Source: Synechococcus sp. UW140 (GTDB lineage Bacteria > Cyanobacteriota > Cyanobacteriia > PCC-6307 > Cyanobiaceae). From it: DNA of 40,386 nucleotides. A program made the position numbers and the translations under genes. The DNA is taken from contig CAMCMT010000024.1 of NCBI GenBank assembly GCA_945875915.1, positions 1 through 40,386 on the forward strand. The letters are read 5' to 3'. The stretch's first letter is position 1. Every line of letters begins with the position of its first letter. Below, in pieces: positions 10,758 through 19,251 of this stretch. The notes beneath the pieces were generated by a model that worked only from the letters and a program-made list of their open reading frames with translations, did not search any database and had not been told where the DNA came from.

Positions 10758-12620
10758 CTAGATCCCCAGGGCCTCTCCGGGCCGCAGGCCGGCCTGGACG
10801 CGCCAGAGGTCGGCGTAGGCGCCACCCGCTTGAATCAGCTGCTCATGGTGGCCGGCTTCGACGATGCGGCCCTGGTCCATCACGACGATGCGATCGGCGT
10901 GGCGCACCGTGCTGAGGCGATGGGCGATCACCAAGGTGGTGCGCTCGGCGGTGATCTGGTCGAGGGAGCGCTGGATCGCCGCTTCCGTTTCGTTATCCAC
11001 GGCGGCGGTGGCCTCATCAAGGATCAGCACCGGTGGATTTTTCAGAATTGCCCGGGCCAGGGCGATGCGCTGGCGCTGGCCGCCGGAGAGGCGCTGGCCC
11101 CGTTCGCCCACCACCGTGTCGTAGCCGTGGGGTAGGGCCTCGATGAAGGGGGCCGCTTCTGCCTGTTGGGCGGCGTGCTCAACCGCATCGCGGCTGGCCG
11201 AGAAGCTGCCGTAGGCAATGTTTTCGGCCACGGTGCCGTGGAAGAGGAACACCTCCTGACTGACCAGGCCGATCGCCCGGCGTAGGTCGTCAAGCCGCAG
11301 TTCCCGGATCGGCATGCCATCGAGCAGGATCTCACCGGCCTGGATGCCATAGAGCCGCAGCAGCAGCTTCACGATTGTGCTTTTCCCTGACCCCGTGGCG
11401 CCAACGATGCCCAGGGTGCTGCCGGCGGGGATGTGCAGGTCCAACCCCTGCAGCAAGGGGTCGCGGCCCTGGTAAGCGAAGCTCACCTGGCGGAACTCCA
11501 GCTCGCCCGCCACCTGGGCTAGGGGCAGGGGCCGGTCGCCGCTGGCGATGGCGATCGGGGTTTCGAGCAGGTCCAGCACCCGCTGGGTGGAGGCCATGGC
11601 CCGCTGGTAGTCGTCGAGGGTGCGGCCCAAGGCGGTGAGCGGCCAGAGCAACCGTTGGGTGATGAACACCAGGAAGCTGTAGCTGCCCACGGCGATCTCC
11701 CCCTGCCAGGCCTGGAGGCCGCCGATCACCAGGATCGCCAGGAAGGCAAACAGGATCGCGAAGCGGATCAGGGGGATGAAGGCTGCCGAGAGGCGGATGG
11801 CGCGGCGGTTGCTGGCCCGGTAGGCCTGGCTATCGCGGCTGAGCCGCTGCTTTTCCCAGGCTTCAGCCGCGTAGCTTTTGATCGTGAGCATGCCGCCGAG
11901 GTTGTTGGCCAGGCGGCTGTTGATGTCACCGGCCCGTTCACGCACCTCCCGGTAGCGGGGGCTGAGCCGTTTCTGGAAGGCCAACGAGCCCCAGAGAATC
12001 ACTGGAATTGGTAAAAAGGCGACACCTGCCACATGGGGGGAGAGCCAGGCCATGGCCCCGCCCACCGCCAGCACCGTGGTGATCAGTTGCAGGAGGTCAT
12101 TAGCGCCGCTGTTAAGGAAACGCTCCAGCTGGTTGATGTCGTCATTGAGCACGGCCATCAGCCGGCCGGAACTGCCCGCCTCGAAATAGGCCATCTCCAG
12201 GTGCTGGAGATGGTCGTAGGCCTCGATGCGCAGCTCGTGCTGCACGGTTTGGGCCAGGTTGCGCCAGAGCAGCTCGTAGAGGTACTCGAACAGGGATTCG
12301 GCGCTCCAGATCACAAAGGAGAGCACCGCCAGCACGCCCAGCTGGCTGGGAACCGAGGTGACGCCGAAGGCGGCCAGCCAGGAATGTTTCTGTTGCACCA
12401 CCACATCCACCGCCAGGCCGATCAGCACCGGTGGCGCCAGGTCAAACAGCTTGTTGAGCACCGAGCAGCTCACCGCTAGCTGCACTTGGCGCCGGTGCGG
12501 CTCGAGGGCAGCGATCAAGCGAGCCAGGGGCAGCCGTCGGGTGTCGCCAGGTCGCTGAGGGTGTTGCTCGACTGGACCGAGCCCTTTGGCCGTTTTGGGG
12601 GAGGGGTTGGGGGAGACCAT
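10758..12620 (-). CDS. ABC exporter, fused permease/ATPase (MsbA-like)
   Basis: A 620-residue half-transporter that should act as a homodimer in the cytoplasmic membrane. A type IV exporter membrane domain (about residues 30-345) is followed by a nucleotide-binding domain with Walker [10 protein letters not shown] (K413), Q-loop region [21 protein letters not shown], signature [15 protein letters not shown], Walker [13 protein letters not shown] and the switch His in [15 protein letters not shown]. All ATPase motifs are intact. Substrate is not evident: relatives move lipids, lipid A precursors, polysaccharide intermediates or drugs. The downstream LCP gene favours an envelope substrate, but that is inference. 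ATG start at 12620; upstream is the terminator of the RRM gene. Confidence 0.93.
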
Positions 12621-14018: not shown

Positions 14019-16073
14019 TCAATCCTGGTGGCGGCTGATCTGAAGTTCCTTGTTCATTACACGGAGTCTTTTGAGCGAGTTGAACACTTCATCAGGCATG
14101 CCCTTAGGCAGGTCGATGGTGCTGTGGCCATCGAAGATCTGGATCCGGCCGATGCTGCGGCCGCCGAGTCCGGCCTCATTGGCGATGGCGCCCACAATGT
14201 TGCCGGGCTTCACCCGATCCCTCCAGCCCACTTCGATGCGGAAGCGCTCCATGTTCTCTTCCGGCTGGCTGTCCTCGGTGCGGAAACTCCCGCGGGCGGG
14301 GGCTCCGCCAGCCGGGCCTACGCGAGTGCGGGGCTCGCCGCCGCGACCGGGGCGATCACCACCCCGCTCATAGCCCCGCTCCCCCCGGTCGTTGCCGCGG
14401 TCGTTGCGGCCCATGGAGGCTTGCTGGCGCATCCAGTTTTCGTCGCCTTGAACCAGCAGGGGGGCCTCTCCTACGGCCAGGCGCAGGGCCGCCAAGGCGA
14501 GCTGGTCGGGGGTTGCCCCCTGTTCCTGGCTCACCCGTTGCAGTATTTCGGCAAGCAGGGCCAGCTCCTCGCGGCGGCTGTCTTCTGAAGGATTGAGGGC
14601 GGTAGTGAGTTTCTGGCGCAGCAGGTCGAGGCGGTGCTGGTTAATCGTGGCGTTGCTTGGAACCTCCATCGGTTCGATTGGCCGCCCTACGGCCCTCTCC
14701 AGGCCACCAAGGAACCGGCGCTCCCGCGGCGTGAGAAAGAGGATGGCGTCTCCGGTGCGGCCGGCCCGGCCGGTGCGGCCAATTCGGTGGACGTAGGCCT
14801 CGGAGTCGAACGGGATGTCGTAGTTCACCACCAGGGTGATGCGCTCCACATCTAGGCCGCGGGCAGCCACATCGGTGGCCACCAGCACGCTTACATGGCC
14901 ACTTTTAAGACGGTCGATCGTGCGTTCCCGCTGGTTTTGGGCCACGTCACCGTTGAGCACGGCCACGTCGTATCCCTTGGCTTCCAGGGATTCAGCCACC
15001 GCCACGGTGATCGCCTTGGTGCGGGCAAAAATAATCACCCCTTCCTTCGTTTCCGCTTCCAGCACCCGGCTGAGGGCCTCCAGTTTTTGGGGCGCGTTCA
15101 CCGTGATGTAGCGCTGGCGGATGCGGCTGGCATCGTCGCCCTTCTGGCGGATCGTGATCTCGGCGGGATCGTTGAGGTATTGCCGCGAGATGCGGCGGAT
15201 TTCGGGCGGCATGGTGGCCGAGAACAGCACCACCTGGCGCTTCTCGGGGAGCTGGCTAAGCACCCATTCGACATCGTCAATGAAGCCCATGCGCAACATC
15301 TCATCGGCCTCATCGAGCACCAGGGTGCGCAGGCCGGAGAGGTCCAGGGTGCCCTGGCGCATGTGGTCCATCACCCGGCCGGGGGTGCCAACCACCACCT
15401 GGACGCCGCGTTTGAGCCGGGCGATCTGGTCGCGGAAATCGGCACCGCCGTAGACGGGCAGCACCCGCAGGTGGGGCATCTTGGCGGCGAAGGTGTTGAA
15501 GGCTTCGGCCACCTGGATCGCCAGTTCCCGGGTGGGGGCGAGCACCAGCACCTGGGGGGTGCGTTGGTTGGGGTCGATTGCAGTCAGCAAGGGCAAGGCG
15601 AAGGCGGCCGTTTTGCCCGTACCCGTTTGGGCTTGACCAACCAAGTCCCGGCCTAAAAGAAGCTCGGGGATCGCCGCTTTCTGGATCGGCGAGGGCTGCT
15701 GGTAGCCAATGTCAACCAGGGCTTGCAGCAGTTCCGGGGCGAAGCCGAAATTGGCAAAACCATTCTCCGGTTCGGCGACGCTGTCCTCAAGAGCTGTCGC
15801 TTCGCCGGCCGGGGCTTCGCTGGGTGTTGCCTTCAGGGCGCTGGTGGTTTGGGCGGCAGCCGGCAAGGACGGTTCAGAGAAGATCGCCACGGCTACCTCC
15901 TGGCTGCTGGGGGCAGGGGTGGAATCCTGGGCGACCTCAGGGGTTGCGCCTTCGTCGGGGGTGCTGTCCGTCGCATCTATTGATGCGCTCTCGTTGTCAG
16001 CGAAGGTTGTAGGAACTGTGGCGCTGAGATCTATCGAGGAGCTGACGCTCTCGCAAGCAGAAGTCTTGGTCAA
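14019..16073 (-). CDS. deaD: DEAD-box RNA helicase (DeaD/CsdA type)
   Basis: A 684-residue ATP-dependent RNA helicase for ribosome assembly, mRNA turnover and cold adaptation. After a Ser/Thr/Ala/Glu-rich N-terminal ~105 residues come the Q motif (SPIQKAAIPELLLGRDL), motif I AQTGTGKT (K154), Ia PTRELA, Ib TPGR, II DEAD (255-258), III SAT, then VLVATDVAARGLD and VI HRIGRTGRAGR. An RGG-like tract (RNDRGNDRGERGYERGGDR) links to a C-terminal DbpA/CsdA RNA-binding domain (MERFRIEVGWRDRVKPGNIVG). Start is uncertain: I chose TTG 16073 because the sequence from there looks like a normal N terminus; the frame stays open to TTG 16199 and GTG 16193, but those 42 extra residues look untranslated. A long leader would suit cold-regulated helicase genes. 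Confidence 0.94.
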   Translation of the reverse strand: MTKTSACESVSSSIDLSATVPTTFADNESASIDATDSTPDEGATPEVAQDSTPAPSSQEVAVAIFSEPSLPAAAQTTSALKATPSEAPAGEATALEDSVAEPENGFANFGFAPELLQALVDIGYQQPSPIQKAAIPELLLGRDLVGQAQTGTGKTAAFALPLLTAIDPNQRTPQVLVLAPTRELAIQVAEAFNTFAAKMPHLRVLPVYGGADFRDQIARLKRGVQVVVGTPGRVMDHMRQGTLDLSGLRTLVLDEADEMLRMGFIDDVEWVLSQLPEKRQVVLFSATMPPEIRRISRQYLNDPAEITIRQKGDDASRIRQRYITVNAPQKLEALSRVLEAETKEGVIIFARTKAITVAVAESLEAKGYDVAVLNGDVAQNQRERTIDRLKSGHVSVLVATDVAARGLDVERITLVVNYDIPFDSEAYVHRIGRTGRAGRTGDAILFLTPRERRFLGGLERAVGRPIEPMEVPSNATINQHRLDLLRQKLTTALNPSEDSRREELALLAEILQRVSQEQGATPDQLALAALRLAVGEAPLLVQGDENWMRQQASMGRNDRGNDRGERGYERGGDRPGRGGEPRTRVGPAGGAPARGSFRTEDSQPEENMERFRIEVGWRDRVKPGNIVGAIANEAGLGGRSIGRIQIFDGHSTIDLPKGMPDEVFNSLKRLRVMNKELQISRHQD

Positions 16074-16310
16074 GTGATGTGGGCCTGGAAAATCCTCGTC
16101 TCGCAGGCCGGCAGATACCCGTTGAACGTAGATCCGAAGCTGCTCAAACCTCTGGCCGTGGCCTAGGTGGCGATCAGCGCTGGGTCCCAGCACGTTCAAA
16201 AAACTGCCTTGCCCTAAAGCAAAGGGTGAAATGAAAGTTTATCACCTTTCGTGCGCCCCATCGTGACGATTGCTAAAGACGTCTGGCCAGGCTGGCTTGC
16301 CCTGGATGCC

Positions 16311-16724
16311 TCAGCTGGCCGGGGCCTGGGCCTCCACCCGGCCGTAGTCGTCGCTCAGGCGCTCAATGTCGTCCTCGCTGAGCCAGCGGCCGTGTTGCAC
16401 CTCGACGATCAGGAGGTCGTTTGCTGCCGCGCCAGCTCGGTGGATGGCGCCTTGGGGAATGGCCAGGAAGGTGCCCGCCTCGGCTGGGGTGCTGCGTCCA
16501 TCACATTCGAGCCAGCCATCTCCTGACACCACCACCCAGTGTTCGCTGCGGTGCTGGTGACGCTGCAGGCTGATGCGATGTCCGGCTCGCACTAAGAGCC
16601 GTTTCACCTGGTAGCCCTCGCCGGAGCCCAGGCCTTCGAACCAACCCCAGGGTCGCTCGACCCTCCCGTTCTGGAGGGGGCTTGGGGTGGGGTTTTGCCG
16701 GAGCTCTGGACTGGTTTCTGCCAT
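16311..16724 (-). CDS. Mannose-6-phosphate isomerase type II cupin domain protein
   Basis: A 137-residue single-domain cupin matching the C-terminal isomerase domain of bifunctional mannose-1-phosphate guanylyltransferase/phosphomannose isomerase. Visible blocks: RPWGWFEGLGSGEGYQVKRL, the metal-binding cupin motif GHRISLQRHQHRSEHWVVVSG with its three His and Glu, and AIPQGAIHRAGAAANDLLIVEVQ with a further His. Family members interconvert fructose-6-P and mannose-6-P for nucleotide sugars. The fused guanylyltransferase domain is absent, as in many stand-alone forms. ATG start at 16724. It lies upstream of the helicase on the same strand with a ~237-bp gap. Confidence 0.9.
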   Translation of the reverse strand: MAETSPELRQNPTPSPLQNGRVERPWGWFEGLGSGEGYQVKRLLVRAGHRISLQRHQHRSEHWVVVSGDGWLECDGRSTPAEAGTFLAIPQGAIHRAGAAANDLLIVEVQHGRWLSEDDIERLSDDYGRVEAQAPAS

Positions 16725-16865
16725 GGAGTGGGCCCGTCAACCAGTCTGGTCTTGAAGCGTATCAAGATTTTAGAAATGGGTTCTAGGGATTGGCTGCCAA
16801 TCGCCGTTTGCCTAGGGCCTTTCCTTAATCGTTAGCAGGCTGGGATGGGCCCAGGTCCAAGATTT

Positions 16866-16891
16866 AAAAAAAAGCCAATCGAACGATTGGC
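16866..16891 (-). terminator. Strong Rho-independent terminator
   Basis: Arms GCCAATCG and CGATTGGC (16874-16891) fold into a hairpin; reading the minus strand it is followed by eight Ts. It ends minus-strand transcription from the right: about 75 bp beyond the stop of the 38-codon gene and about 500 bp beyond recD, so it may end either unit or both. Confidence 0.86.
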
Positions 16892-16966
16892 ATGGATTGG
16901 ATTTGATCTCGGTTTATCGAAGACTGCAGATCCATCCAGGTTTAGGTGGAATTTAGCTATTTTAGA

Positions 16967-17083
16967 TCAATAATGAGATTGAAAAGAGGGTGTCAGAGCC
17001 GCCTGGGGCCAGGGGATCAAGGGGGTCACTTGCGCACCCTTGGGCACCTCGATCACAAAACCAGGTTGGGCCTGGAATGTCAT
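16967..17083 (-). CDS. Probable small protein, 38 residues
   Basis: ATG 17083 to TGA 16967-16969 encodes 38 residues. The start reads MTFQAQPGFVIEVPKGAQV and the end TPSFQSHY. The composition is protein-like (balanced charged, hydrophobic and Pro/Gly residues, no low complexity), and codons in the middle use the G/C-ending choices of neighbouring genes. The frame stays open upstream to about 17183 with less typical codons and no other start. No membrane helix or signal peptide; no Shine-Dalgarno sequence is obvious. A strong terminator follows on the same strand and an inverted repeat lies upstream. I do not recognise a family. Alternatively it could be the tail of a decayed gene. Confidence 0.45.
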   Translation of the reverse strand: MTFQAQPGFVIEVPKGAQVTPLIPWPQAALTPSFQSHY

Positions 17084-17385
17084 GTCAGCGATGCGGGGGG
17101 TGGATTCTAAGCCGGAATTCCGAGCAGGAATGGGAAATGGCCTTTCGGGGAGACTAGTGGAGCAGGGGCTCTGACAGGTTGTCGTGTTTCACTTCCCTTC
17201 CTGCACGGGCATGAAGGCGGTTAACACACTCTGAGCACGTCATGAATACACCGGTAAAAATGCATCATGACGGCTGCAGATGCGACCTTTGGATTTCTCC
17301 TGGTGCCGCTGAACGCACTATGGGGCAAGGTTGCGATCAAGTCGCCCAGTGTTTACTCTTCGTTGGAAAAGAATTGCCTGAGCGA
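17084..17385. other. Gene-free stretch with an 8-bp inverted repeat
   Basis: Between the recD stop and the 38-codon gene I see no gene. Perfect inverted arms CGTCATGA (17238-17245) and TCATGACG (17265-17272) flank 19 bases. This could be a dimeric regulator site upstream of the small gene or a loose stem in a recD 3' region. Confidence 0.45.
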
Positions 17386-19251
17386 TCAGTCCAGCGCAAG
17401 CCAGCTGGGCGCGTTGGTGGTGATGAGCCAGGCCCGCTGGCGGGCCCGGGTAAGGCCCGTATAGAGCAGGCGCGGATCCCAGTGGCGCGTTTGGGGAACC
17501 AGCAGCACCACCTCCTGGTACTGGCTGCCCTGGGATTTATGGATCGTGAGGGCCAGGGCCGGTTCGGCGGCGCCCAGGCGGGCGGGGTGGAACAGGCGTG
17601 CCCCAGGGCTGCTGGCTCCAGTCGTAGCCCCAATGTGGGCTGGAAAGGGCCCCGGAAATAGCACCAGCCGTTCGTCCGCCCGCTCCACCAGCACGCCGAT
17701 GTCGCCGTTGGCGAGCCCCTCTTCAGCCAGGTTGCGCTGGCAGAGCACGGGCGTGCCCAGGGGCCAGTGCTGGATGGCTTTGCCGGCGGCCTTGCCCAGG
17801 AGCTGGCGCTGCAGCGCTTCCACCCCCCAGGCCCCCTGGCGCACGGGGCTGAGCAGCACGCAGGCCTCCAGTTCGGCCAGCAGGGCAGCGATGGACGCTG
17901 GGGGCCTGGGGCTGCGCTCGCCCTCGGCACCGGCCCCGGCGGCCCAGGGTCCCCAGTCGATCGCTTCGGCCAGGTCCTGGAGCCGGTGCTGGTGGCGTCG
18001 CAATCGCTCCAGGGCTGGGCCGGGCAGGCGGTCCGCCGGGTGACGCTGCCAGACCAGGTTGTCTGCGGGCCCCAGGCTGGCTAACTGAGTGCGCAAGCCA
18101 GCCCCGCTCCCGTGGCGAAGCAGGGCGTCTCCTGGGCCAGGTCGCAGCGCAGCAGCGAAGGCAGCGATGGCGCCGTTGTTGCGATAGGTCGTTTTCAGTT
18201 CGATGGCGGCCTCGCCGAGGGCGAGGAGGCGGCCGGGCTGGCCCAGCTCCTGCAACACCGCGCCCGGGCCCACCGGTGGCAACTGGGCCGGATCGCCCAC
18301 CAGCAGCAGCTGGCAGGAGTCCGGCAGGGCCTCCAGCAGGGCCGCCATCAGGGGTAGGTCCACCATCGACAGCTCATCGACCACCAGCAGGTCGAGGGCG
18401 AGCGGATGGCGGCGGTTGCGGCCGAAGCGCTCACCGCTGCTCTCCAGCAGCCGGTGCAGGGTGGTGCAGGCGGCCTGGCCCAGGCGTTCGGCCAGGGGGC
18501 CCGCCAGCCCTTGGCTGCCCTCCTGCAGGGTGCTGCGCAGCCGGGCCGCCGCCTTGCCCGTGGGGGCGGCCAGGTGCAGCCGCAGCTCGGGCCGCAGGGC
18601 CAGCAGCGCCCCGAGCATCTGCACCACCGTGCTGGTTTTGCCCGTACCGGGGCCGCCGCCCAGGAGCACCAGGCGATGGCGCAACAGGGCCGCCACCGCC
18701 TGCTGTTGCTGGCGGTCCAGGCCCTGGCTTGCGGCGCTAGCCACCGCCTGGTCCACGGCCGTCGGCTCCAGCGGTGGGCTCAAGGGCGCCTGGGCCCGGG
18801 CCGTGAGTTGCCCCAAGCAGCTCTCCAATTGCAGGTGCCAGCGGCGCCAACGCAGGCGCCCCTCGCTCCAAACCAGGGGCGCCTCCGGCAGGCGCTCGAG
18901 CTCGCTGGCTGGCACCGCCAGGGCTGAGGCGGCCAGGGCCAGGCGGTGGCGCTCCGGCCAACCCTCGGGGTCGATCGCTTCGGGCGCCGGGCCGTCCAGG
19001 TCCAGCTCCAGCTCGCCCCGCTCCAGGGCGGCGGCCATGGCCCCAATCAGTTCTGCCAGGGTGGGGTCCGTAGGGCTGTTCGTGGGATTTTCACCGCCGC
19101 ACAGCCTGGGCAGGGCCTCGATCAGGGCCAGGGCCAGGGGGCTGGGGGCTAGCGGGGCACGGGGCAGTGGCGCTGCGTTGTCTGGTTCTGGACTGCCTCG
19201 ATGGGCTGGATTGCCATCGGGTCGGAGCTTGGGCGGTTTGGCTGGGGTCAT
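17386..19251 (-). CDS. recD: Exodeoxyribonuclease V alpha subunit RecD
   Basis: RecD is the 5'-3' helicase motor of RecBCD, which processes double-strand breaks for RecA-dependent repair and degrades foreign linear DNA. The 621-residue protein has Walker A GGGPGTGKTST (K205), the DELSMVDLPLMAALLEAL helicase II block, LLVGDPAQLPPVGPGAVL, and C-terminal TIHKSQGSQYQEVVLLVPQ and LYTGLTRARQRAWLIT. The length is close to that of E. coli RecD (608). ATG 19251 overlaps the recB stop by 4 bp (translational coupling). It is the last gene of a phosphoesterase-recC-recB-recD run. Confidence 0.95.
   Translation of the reverse strand: MTPAKPPKLRPDGNPAHRGSPEPDNAAPLPRAPLAPSPLALALIEALPRLCGGENPTNSPTDPTLAELIGAMAAALERGELELDLDGPAPEAIDPEGWPERHRLALAASALAVPASELERLPEAPLVWSEGRLRWRRWHLQLESCLGQLTARAQAPLSPPLEPTAVDQAVASAASQGLDRQQQQAVAALLRHRLVLLGGGPGTGKTSTVVQMLGALLALRPELRLHLAAPTGKAAARLRSTLQEGSQGLAGPLAERLGQAACTTLHRLLESSGERFGRNRRHPLALDLLVVDELSMVDLPLMAALLEALPDSCQLLLVGDPAQLPPVGPGAVLQELGQPGRLLALGEAAIELKTTYRNNGAIAAFAAALRPGPGDALLRHGSGAGLRTQLASLGPADNLVWQRHPADRLPGPALERLRRHQHRLQDLAEAIDWGPWAAGAGAEGERSPRPPASIAALLAELEACVLLSPVRQGAWGVEALQRQLLGKAAGKAIQHWPLGTPVLCQRNLAEEGLANGDIGVLVERADERLVLFPGPFPAHIGATTGASSPGARLFHPARLGAAEPALALTIHKSQGSQYQEVVLLVPQTRHWDPRLLYTGLTRARQRAWLITTNAPSWLALD

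Follow-up and report, generated by a model that had tools for sequence, protein, structure and literature searches.

A conserved folded RNA between recD and a cupin gene of picocyanobacteria, probably a divergent single-copy paralogue of Yfr103

The window analysed here is a stretch of 40,386 nucleotides of Synechococcus sp. UW140 (assembly GCA_945875915.1, contig CAMCMT010000024.1, positions 1 to 40,386), in which a gap of 661 bp separates a cupin ORF (to 16724) from a recD-like gene (from 17386). The original prediction, made from the letters of the window, described this stretch as gene-poor and placed in it an unnamed gene, 38 codons long and equipped with its own terminator, which was read first of all as coding for a small protein. 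The gap indeed contains no other evident gene; the ORF exists on the minus strand, like the cupin and recD-like genes, with an ATG start (17083..16967), and a perfect 7-bp hairpin followed by eight T lies 75 bp past its stop, at 16891..16866. The features of the locus are the following.

14019 to 16199, minus strand: DEAD-box RNA helicase gene of the deaD type (DEAD, Helicase_C, DbpA and DeaD_dimer domains; synteny), beyond the cupin gene
16311 to 16724, minus strand: cupin gene of the mannose-6-phosphate-isomerase C-terminal type (PF01050; synteny), downstream of the RNA
16866 to 16891, minus strand: intrinsic-terminator-like hairpin, GCCAATC-GTTC-GATTGGC plus eight T (sequence, terminator scan)
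16967 to 17083, minus strand: 38-codon ORF, judged not protein-coding (stops in two of five relatives, no third-position excess)
16983 to 17178, minus strand: probable Yfr103-like structured RNA of the recD-site type (limits as matched by the covariance model, not mapped transcript ends)
16992 to 17005, minus strand: closing stem P1, 3' strand with one bulged base, pairing with 17175-17163 (same covariation as the 5' strand)
17044 to 17048, minus strand: P5 3' strand GGUGC, pairing with GCAUC 17094-17090
17061 to 17075, minus strand: variable hairpin capping P5 (CCAGG...CCTGG; single-sequence fold, partners by eye)
17090 to 17094, minus strand: P5 5' strand GCAUC, pairing with GGUGC 17048-17044
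17150 to 17162, minus strand: conserved motif CUCC(A)(A/C)UAGUCUC, unpaired in the model, within a conserved 28-mer
17163 to 17175, minus strand: closing stem P1, 5' strand, pairing with 17005-16992 (in the 26 copies, both sides change at four pairs)
17386 to 19251, minus strand: recD-like helicase gene (AAA_30/AAA_19 and UvrD_C_2 domains; synteny), upstream of the RNA

Elsewhere in the window, ARAGORN calls a tRNA-Ala(GGC) at 11507-11591 on which the Rfam tRNA model is silent, and which may be a false call.

Conservation and base-pair covariation far above chance, which had gone unnoticed in the original prediction, extend over 17178-16983 and delimit an RNA of about 195 nt that begins some 95 nt upstream of the ORF and is present in all six genomes of the genus. 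Conservation is strongest in a 28-mer (17174-17147), upstream of the ORF, and in its complement about 170 nt further on, the presence of which led us to drop a reading of the 28-mer as a promoter element. With at most three mismatches, the 28-mer occurs in 25 of 400 family genomes, once in each, and the reversed control in none; these matches, together with those in named records, provided 26 distinct copies. The record of a cultured strain, Synechococcus sp. CS-1328, is among those with a copy (L074). The closing stem P1 was set by eye on the alignment of these copies (A2) and then counted separately: it comprises 13 pairs, four of which show two-sided changes such as U-A/C-G, A-U/G-C and C-G/A-U. 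The 18-pair structure formed by P1 and P5 yields 27 two-sided cells against 7.3 +- 2.7 after shuffling (0 of 500 as high), and the same structure slid along the alignment yields 0 to 4. P5 is without covariation support because it is nearly invariant, each of its pairs being kept in 25 or 26 of the 26 copies, and the partners in the hairpin that caps it differ in other copies yet match, as judged by eye. One P1 pair is G-U in 7 of the 26 copies, and the G-U pairs in P1 designate the minus strand as the sense strand. Compared with shuffled sequences, the fold has a z of -2.5 on the minus strand and of -0.8 on the plus strand. The minimum-energy structure of a 231-nt piece of the window lacks P1 (z -1.3), the g6 copy L054 folds with it (z -3.1), and P1 carries mismatches in G004 and G005. 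RNAalifold, applied to all copies, returned little besides P5 and local pairs; four g1 copies were wrongly cut in that alignment. Comparison of the copies establishes the closing stem, the synteny described below and a conserved core consisting of CUGCUCCAA(U/C)AGUCU, of UGCA(U/C)CG paired with GGUGCCC, and of GGCCCCAGG.

An ORF ending at the UAG of the core, open in all the UAG copies, was also considered and was rejected: what looks like a conserved start codon belongs to the stop of recD, and L038, L039 and L057 do not have the CATACTTC block in the same frame.

All 26 distinct copies are preceded by recD, read in the same direction, within about 430 nt in 25 of them and at 1.4 kb in L038; the cupin gene lies downstream in 24, the contigs of the other two (L002 and L003) ending within 262 nt, and deaD comes next in most copies where enough sequence is present. 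The copies belong to four genera (g1, 6; g6, 16; g23, 2; g74, 2), a weaker copy occupies the same recD-cupin place in g77 (L112/L211), and the named records in the genera that hold the recD-site RNA are mostly freshwater. The order recD-cupin-deaD occurs without the RNA in six genomes examined (L203, L204, L206, L207, L209 and L210); the RNA is thus confined to part of the lineages, in which it was gained, or outside which it was lost, at a fixed place. Model R1, which was built from the window RNA among others and gives it 174 bits, scores above 100 bits in 34 of the 400 family genomes. A record titled Bifidobacterium breve (L070, CALPNT020000055.1) contains the picocyanobacterial recD-RNA-cupin locus; its name is probably wrong or its bin mixed. 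A phage origin was rejected: similar DNA is absent from annotated phages, and 70 viral contigs with a core 16-mer or 17-mer gave five weak matches to a second model, R2, described below (E 0.002-0.007), which were taken as chance.

Beyond the recD site, R1 revealed a much wider family, with matches at E <=0.05 in 239 of the 400 family genomes and in 50 of 59 genera (161 genomes being without a match). Outside the recD site the scores are lower, and the matches are often several per genome, sometimes in tandem, and dispersed over many loci. Searches against Rfam gave no match for the window stretch, nor for the RNA in nine further loci. Of the R1 matches, 57 were collected in 53 fetched stretches (20, and 33 of 40) with at least one match each, and from 28 of these copies, without any recD-site copy, model R2 was built. 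A single-contig genome of 2,510,659 bases (G238), which we take to be Synechococcus CC9605, contains exactly seven R2 copies, and R2 also matches genomes that are presumably those of RCC307, KORDI-49, KORDI-100, WH7803, CC9311, WH8109, MIT9313 and SS120. The last two, if so assigned, hold one copy each, which makes the multi-copy state a weak criterion of membership. In the accessible part of its published description, Yfr103 is a multi-copy non-coding RNA of marine Synechococcus and some Prochlorococcus, extremely abundant, reported indeed as the most abundant single ncRNA of marine picocyanobacteria, and of enigmatic function, which is represented in CC9605 by seven paralogues of 290-328 nt and which, in one ocean sample, supplied 55.2% of the mdRNA-Seq reads of that strain (PMC5069720). 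The same part of that source lists RCC307, KORDI-49, KORDI-100, WH7803, CC9311, WH8109, MIT9313 and SS120 as strains with Yfr103 homologues (PMC5069720). The multi-copy family is almost certainly Yfr103, since the seven copies of G238 match the seven published paralogues, an identification made on copy number and strain list and not on the Yfr103 sequence.

R2 in turn finds the window RNA (42.5 bits, E 1e-8, 17168-17000, model positions 23-168 of 195) and, of the 11 genomes searched with it that contain a recD-site RNA, recovers that RNA in 10, missing the one of G005. The two models thus match reciprocally, and the window RNA is therefore read as a divergent paralogue of Yfr103 at a fixed locus. 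Both kinds coexist in the genome of the window, which has one recD-site copy and one canonical Yfr103-type copy (G000:C19:11573-11737), so that the recD-site RNA is not itself multi-copy; a weak R1 match of 50 bases and 27 bits in the same genome (G000:C38:12362-12411) is perhaps a remnant. Among 194 genomes drawn from the class, R2 matches 15: 14 members of the family, and G510 with a marginal E of 6e-4; the matches in the g18 genomes G022 and G121 are also marginal (E about 0.002).

Several observations concern the Yfr103-type loci themselves. Near-identical copies lie close together in L106 (three, 450 bp apart), L115 (two, 2.7 kb) and L119 (two, 1.3 kb), as in recent duplication. An imperfect GGCAAT...ATTGC-like palindrome, seen before many marine copies, precedes the RNA in L107, L108, L115, L116, L117, L119, L123 and L124; it is of the same kind as the one reported, in the accessible part of the source, at -29 to -58 of the Yfr103 start site (PMC5069720), and is a possible regulator site. 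Two marine-type genomes have a Glutamine-II riboswitch some 200 nt past a Yfr103-type copy, on its downstream side (L108 1199-1260 and L115 687-750).

The 5' part of the Yfr103-type copies contains a further element. After removal of two of three identical L106 copies, 55 of the 57 matches remained, and 54 without the recD-site copy L112. In 50 of these 54, an SD-like stretch of the GGAGG type and a start codon precede a TPP peptide of 9-21 codons (45 distinct peptides); the SD-led ORF of L138 contains no TPP, as judged by eye, and L129, L141 and L147 have no SD-led ORF. In 52 distinct aligned copies, chosen regardless of TPP, the entropy of the D-T-P-P codons is 0.14-0.37 bits at positions 1 and 2 and 1.05-1.82 bits at position 3, a codon-periodic conservation which is a mark of translation. 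The micro-ORF usually stops 12-16 nt before the core UGCUCC, just past the 5' strand of an outer stem, and in the canonical copy of the window's own genome (L184, about 1461-1515) it reads MEDTPPQHHLGVN. The comparison suggests that Yfr103 carries a hidden tiny gene. No SD-led TPP micro-ORF was found in any of the 26 recD-site copies, four of which (L039, L054, L058 and L060) have another SD-led frame. Neither the Yfr103 micro-ORF nor the recD-site RNA was found reported in the open-access literature searched, the key Yfr103 papers lying outside it.

The two kinds differ by a single change in the core, besides the outer stem and the micro-ORF: the motif reads UAG in 26 of 27 recD-site copies, and CAG in 50 and CAC in 3 of the 54 Yfr103-type copies, one other row of which was cut at a wrong anchor. 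The outer stem covaries in the Yfr103-type copies, whose whole structure shows 15 two-sided cells against 5.4 +- 2.9 (0 of 500 shuffles as high). A tree of 81 rows over 80 core columns, in which some block ends are possibly out of register, neither shows nor rejects a single recD-site clade (p-AU 0.30). From these comparisons of sequence and position, we consider with good confidence that the product of the locus is not a protein but a structured non-coding RNA in its own right, namely a divergent, single-copy, position-fixed paralogue of Yfr103 in which the 5' micro-ORF and the outer stem were lost or had never been present.

In the model that we propose, the recD-site RNA would be transcribed from its own promoter, situated between recD and the RNA. 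Most copies from genera other than that of the window have a CATACT box of the -10 type some 40 nt ahead of P1, and it is conserved as nucleotides and not in frame. The transcript would end at the U-tract that follows P1; in the window it would end at 16866, where the hairpin likely marks the 3' end of a longer transcript form; the terminator scan found 2 sites against 1.2 +- 1.3 in shuffles, and the position is partly kept in the genus, with a T-run in G003 and a stem without T-run in G005. By closing the molecule, P1 would leave two invariant strands, CUCC(A)AUAGUC and GGCCC, exposed as a docking surface, through which the RNA would act in trans with the partner of Yfr103, either a protein or mRNAs, with whose GGAG-type ribosome-binding sites the CUCC strand would pair. 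In this action it would be the peptide-less form of Yfr103. It is possible, and we put it forward tentatively, that Yfr103 is a dual RNA, in which a 5' SD-led micro-ORF with the polyproline-type motif (D/E)TPP is followed by the structured core, and of which the window RNA would be the constitutively folded form devoid of peptide. Ribosomes pausing at TPPx in the micro-ORF would hold the outer stem open, and the RNA would thereby sense translation or EF-P capacity, a speculative idea that has its basis in EF-P and polyproline pausing.

Three other explanations of the locus have to be weighed against a trans-acting paralogue. That the 38-codon ORF is a small protein gene, as first proposed, now appears scarcely credible. 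The frame is open, its letters are protein-like and an IEVPKG stretch is kept in the genus; these conserved letters, however, coincide with the blocks conserved in the RNA (P5 and P1). The stretch is conserved in each of the five other congeneric genomes searched and, over 28 bases, in one more of the 60 genomes, but two of the five relatives have an in-frame stop (TGA in G004, TAG in G005), the homologous start codon is ATG in two and GTG in three, and the substitutions summed over the five are distributed 25/24/21 over the codon positions, without third-position excess. The search for stops and synonymous change among relatives, which had been proposed beforehand as a check, therefore turned out against the gene. 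Outside the genus no counterpart of the frame was found, G027 showing stops and gaps; neither Pfam nor the plasmid search gave a match for the ORF, and its length is unremarkable, 65 ORFs of at least 30 aa overlapping the 6.5 kb examined. The original prediction had left room for the mRNA-like part of a small RNA, and this was right in essence: the stretch does belong to a small RNA, which begins well upstream and is not mRNA-like over the ORF. By comparison of the relatives, the supposed gene is the 3' half of the conserved folded RNA.

The main rival, though weakened, is a cis-acting leader, in which the RNA would share a promoter with cupin and deaD and act as an attenuator or sensor, P1 and the U-tract stopping or passing transcription. 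Genes of deaD-type helicases are often controlled by long leaders, the RNA keeps its place and direction ahead of cupin and deaD, and most copies carry a U-rich tract past P1; a leader nevertheless seems unlikely to us, since the six genomes mentioned above keep recD-cupin-deaD without the RNA, homologous Yfr103-type copies occupy many different loci, some in tandem, and a strong terminator stands between the RNA and the cupin gene in the window. It would be very surprising if the locus were a functionless Yfr103 copy, inserted between recD and cupin and decaying there. The missing micro-ORF (0 of 26) and outer stem, the lower R2 match and the canonical copy in the same genome would agree with decay, but the compensatory changes in P1, the core invariant across four genera and the presence in all six genomes of the genus stand against it, and the changes in P1 and the invariant core imply a continuing selection on the RNA. 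We therefore retain the separate RNA related to Yfr103 as the preferred reading.

The study corrects a small-gene call that was plausible but wrong. For Yfr103, it adds a covariance-supported consensus, a conserved micro-ORF and a wider range, extending to genera whose named records are mostly freshwater. The Yfr103 kind itself is known; what is new, as judged from the genomes compared, is a divergent variant without peptide at a fixed locus. As a natural paralogue lacking the peptide, it makes it possible to separate by experiment what the fold of the RNA does from what the peptide does.

Three known systems invite comparison with the recD-site RNA. It resembles 6S RNA (RF00013) as a single-copy structured RNA of about 185 nt with a long closing stem, but the canonical 6S RNA of this genome sits elsewhere (G000:C78:2996-3178), downstream of what we take to be a purK-like gene, and no 6S model matches in the window, RF00013 being without a match at E <=5 in 16720-17400. 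Yfr6 and the Downstream-peptide (Glutamine-II) RNAs, as far as their available descriptions go, are likewise picocyanobacterial and associated with a short ORF; the Glutamine-II model matches neither the window nor the RNA copies themselves. The closest likeness is to Yfr103, with which the recD-site RNA shares the conserved core and the P1/P5 layout. Its conserved part measures about 196 nt, and about 350 nt to the terminator, as given by the model match and not by mapped ends, against 290-328 nt published for Yfr103. Unlike Yfr103, the recD-site RNA is single-copy at a fixed recD-cupin locus, occurs in genera with mostly freshwater named records, has no outer GAAGC/GCUUC stem, and has in 0 of 26 copies the SD-led TPP micro-ORF that 50 of 54 Yfr103-type copies possess.
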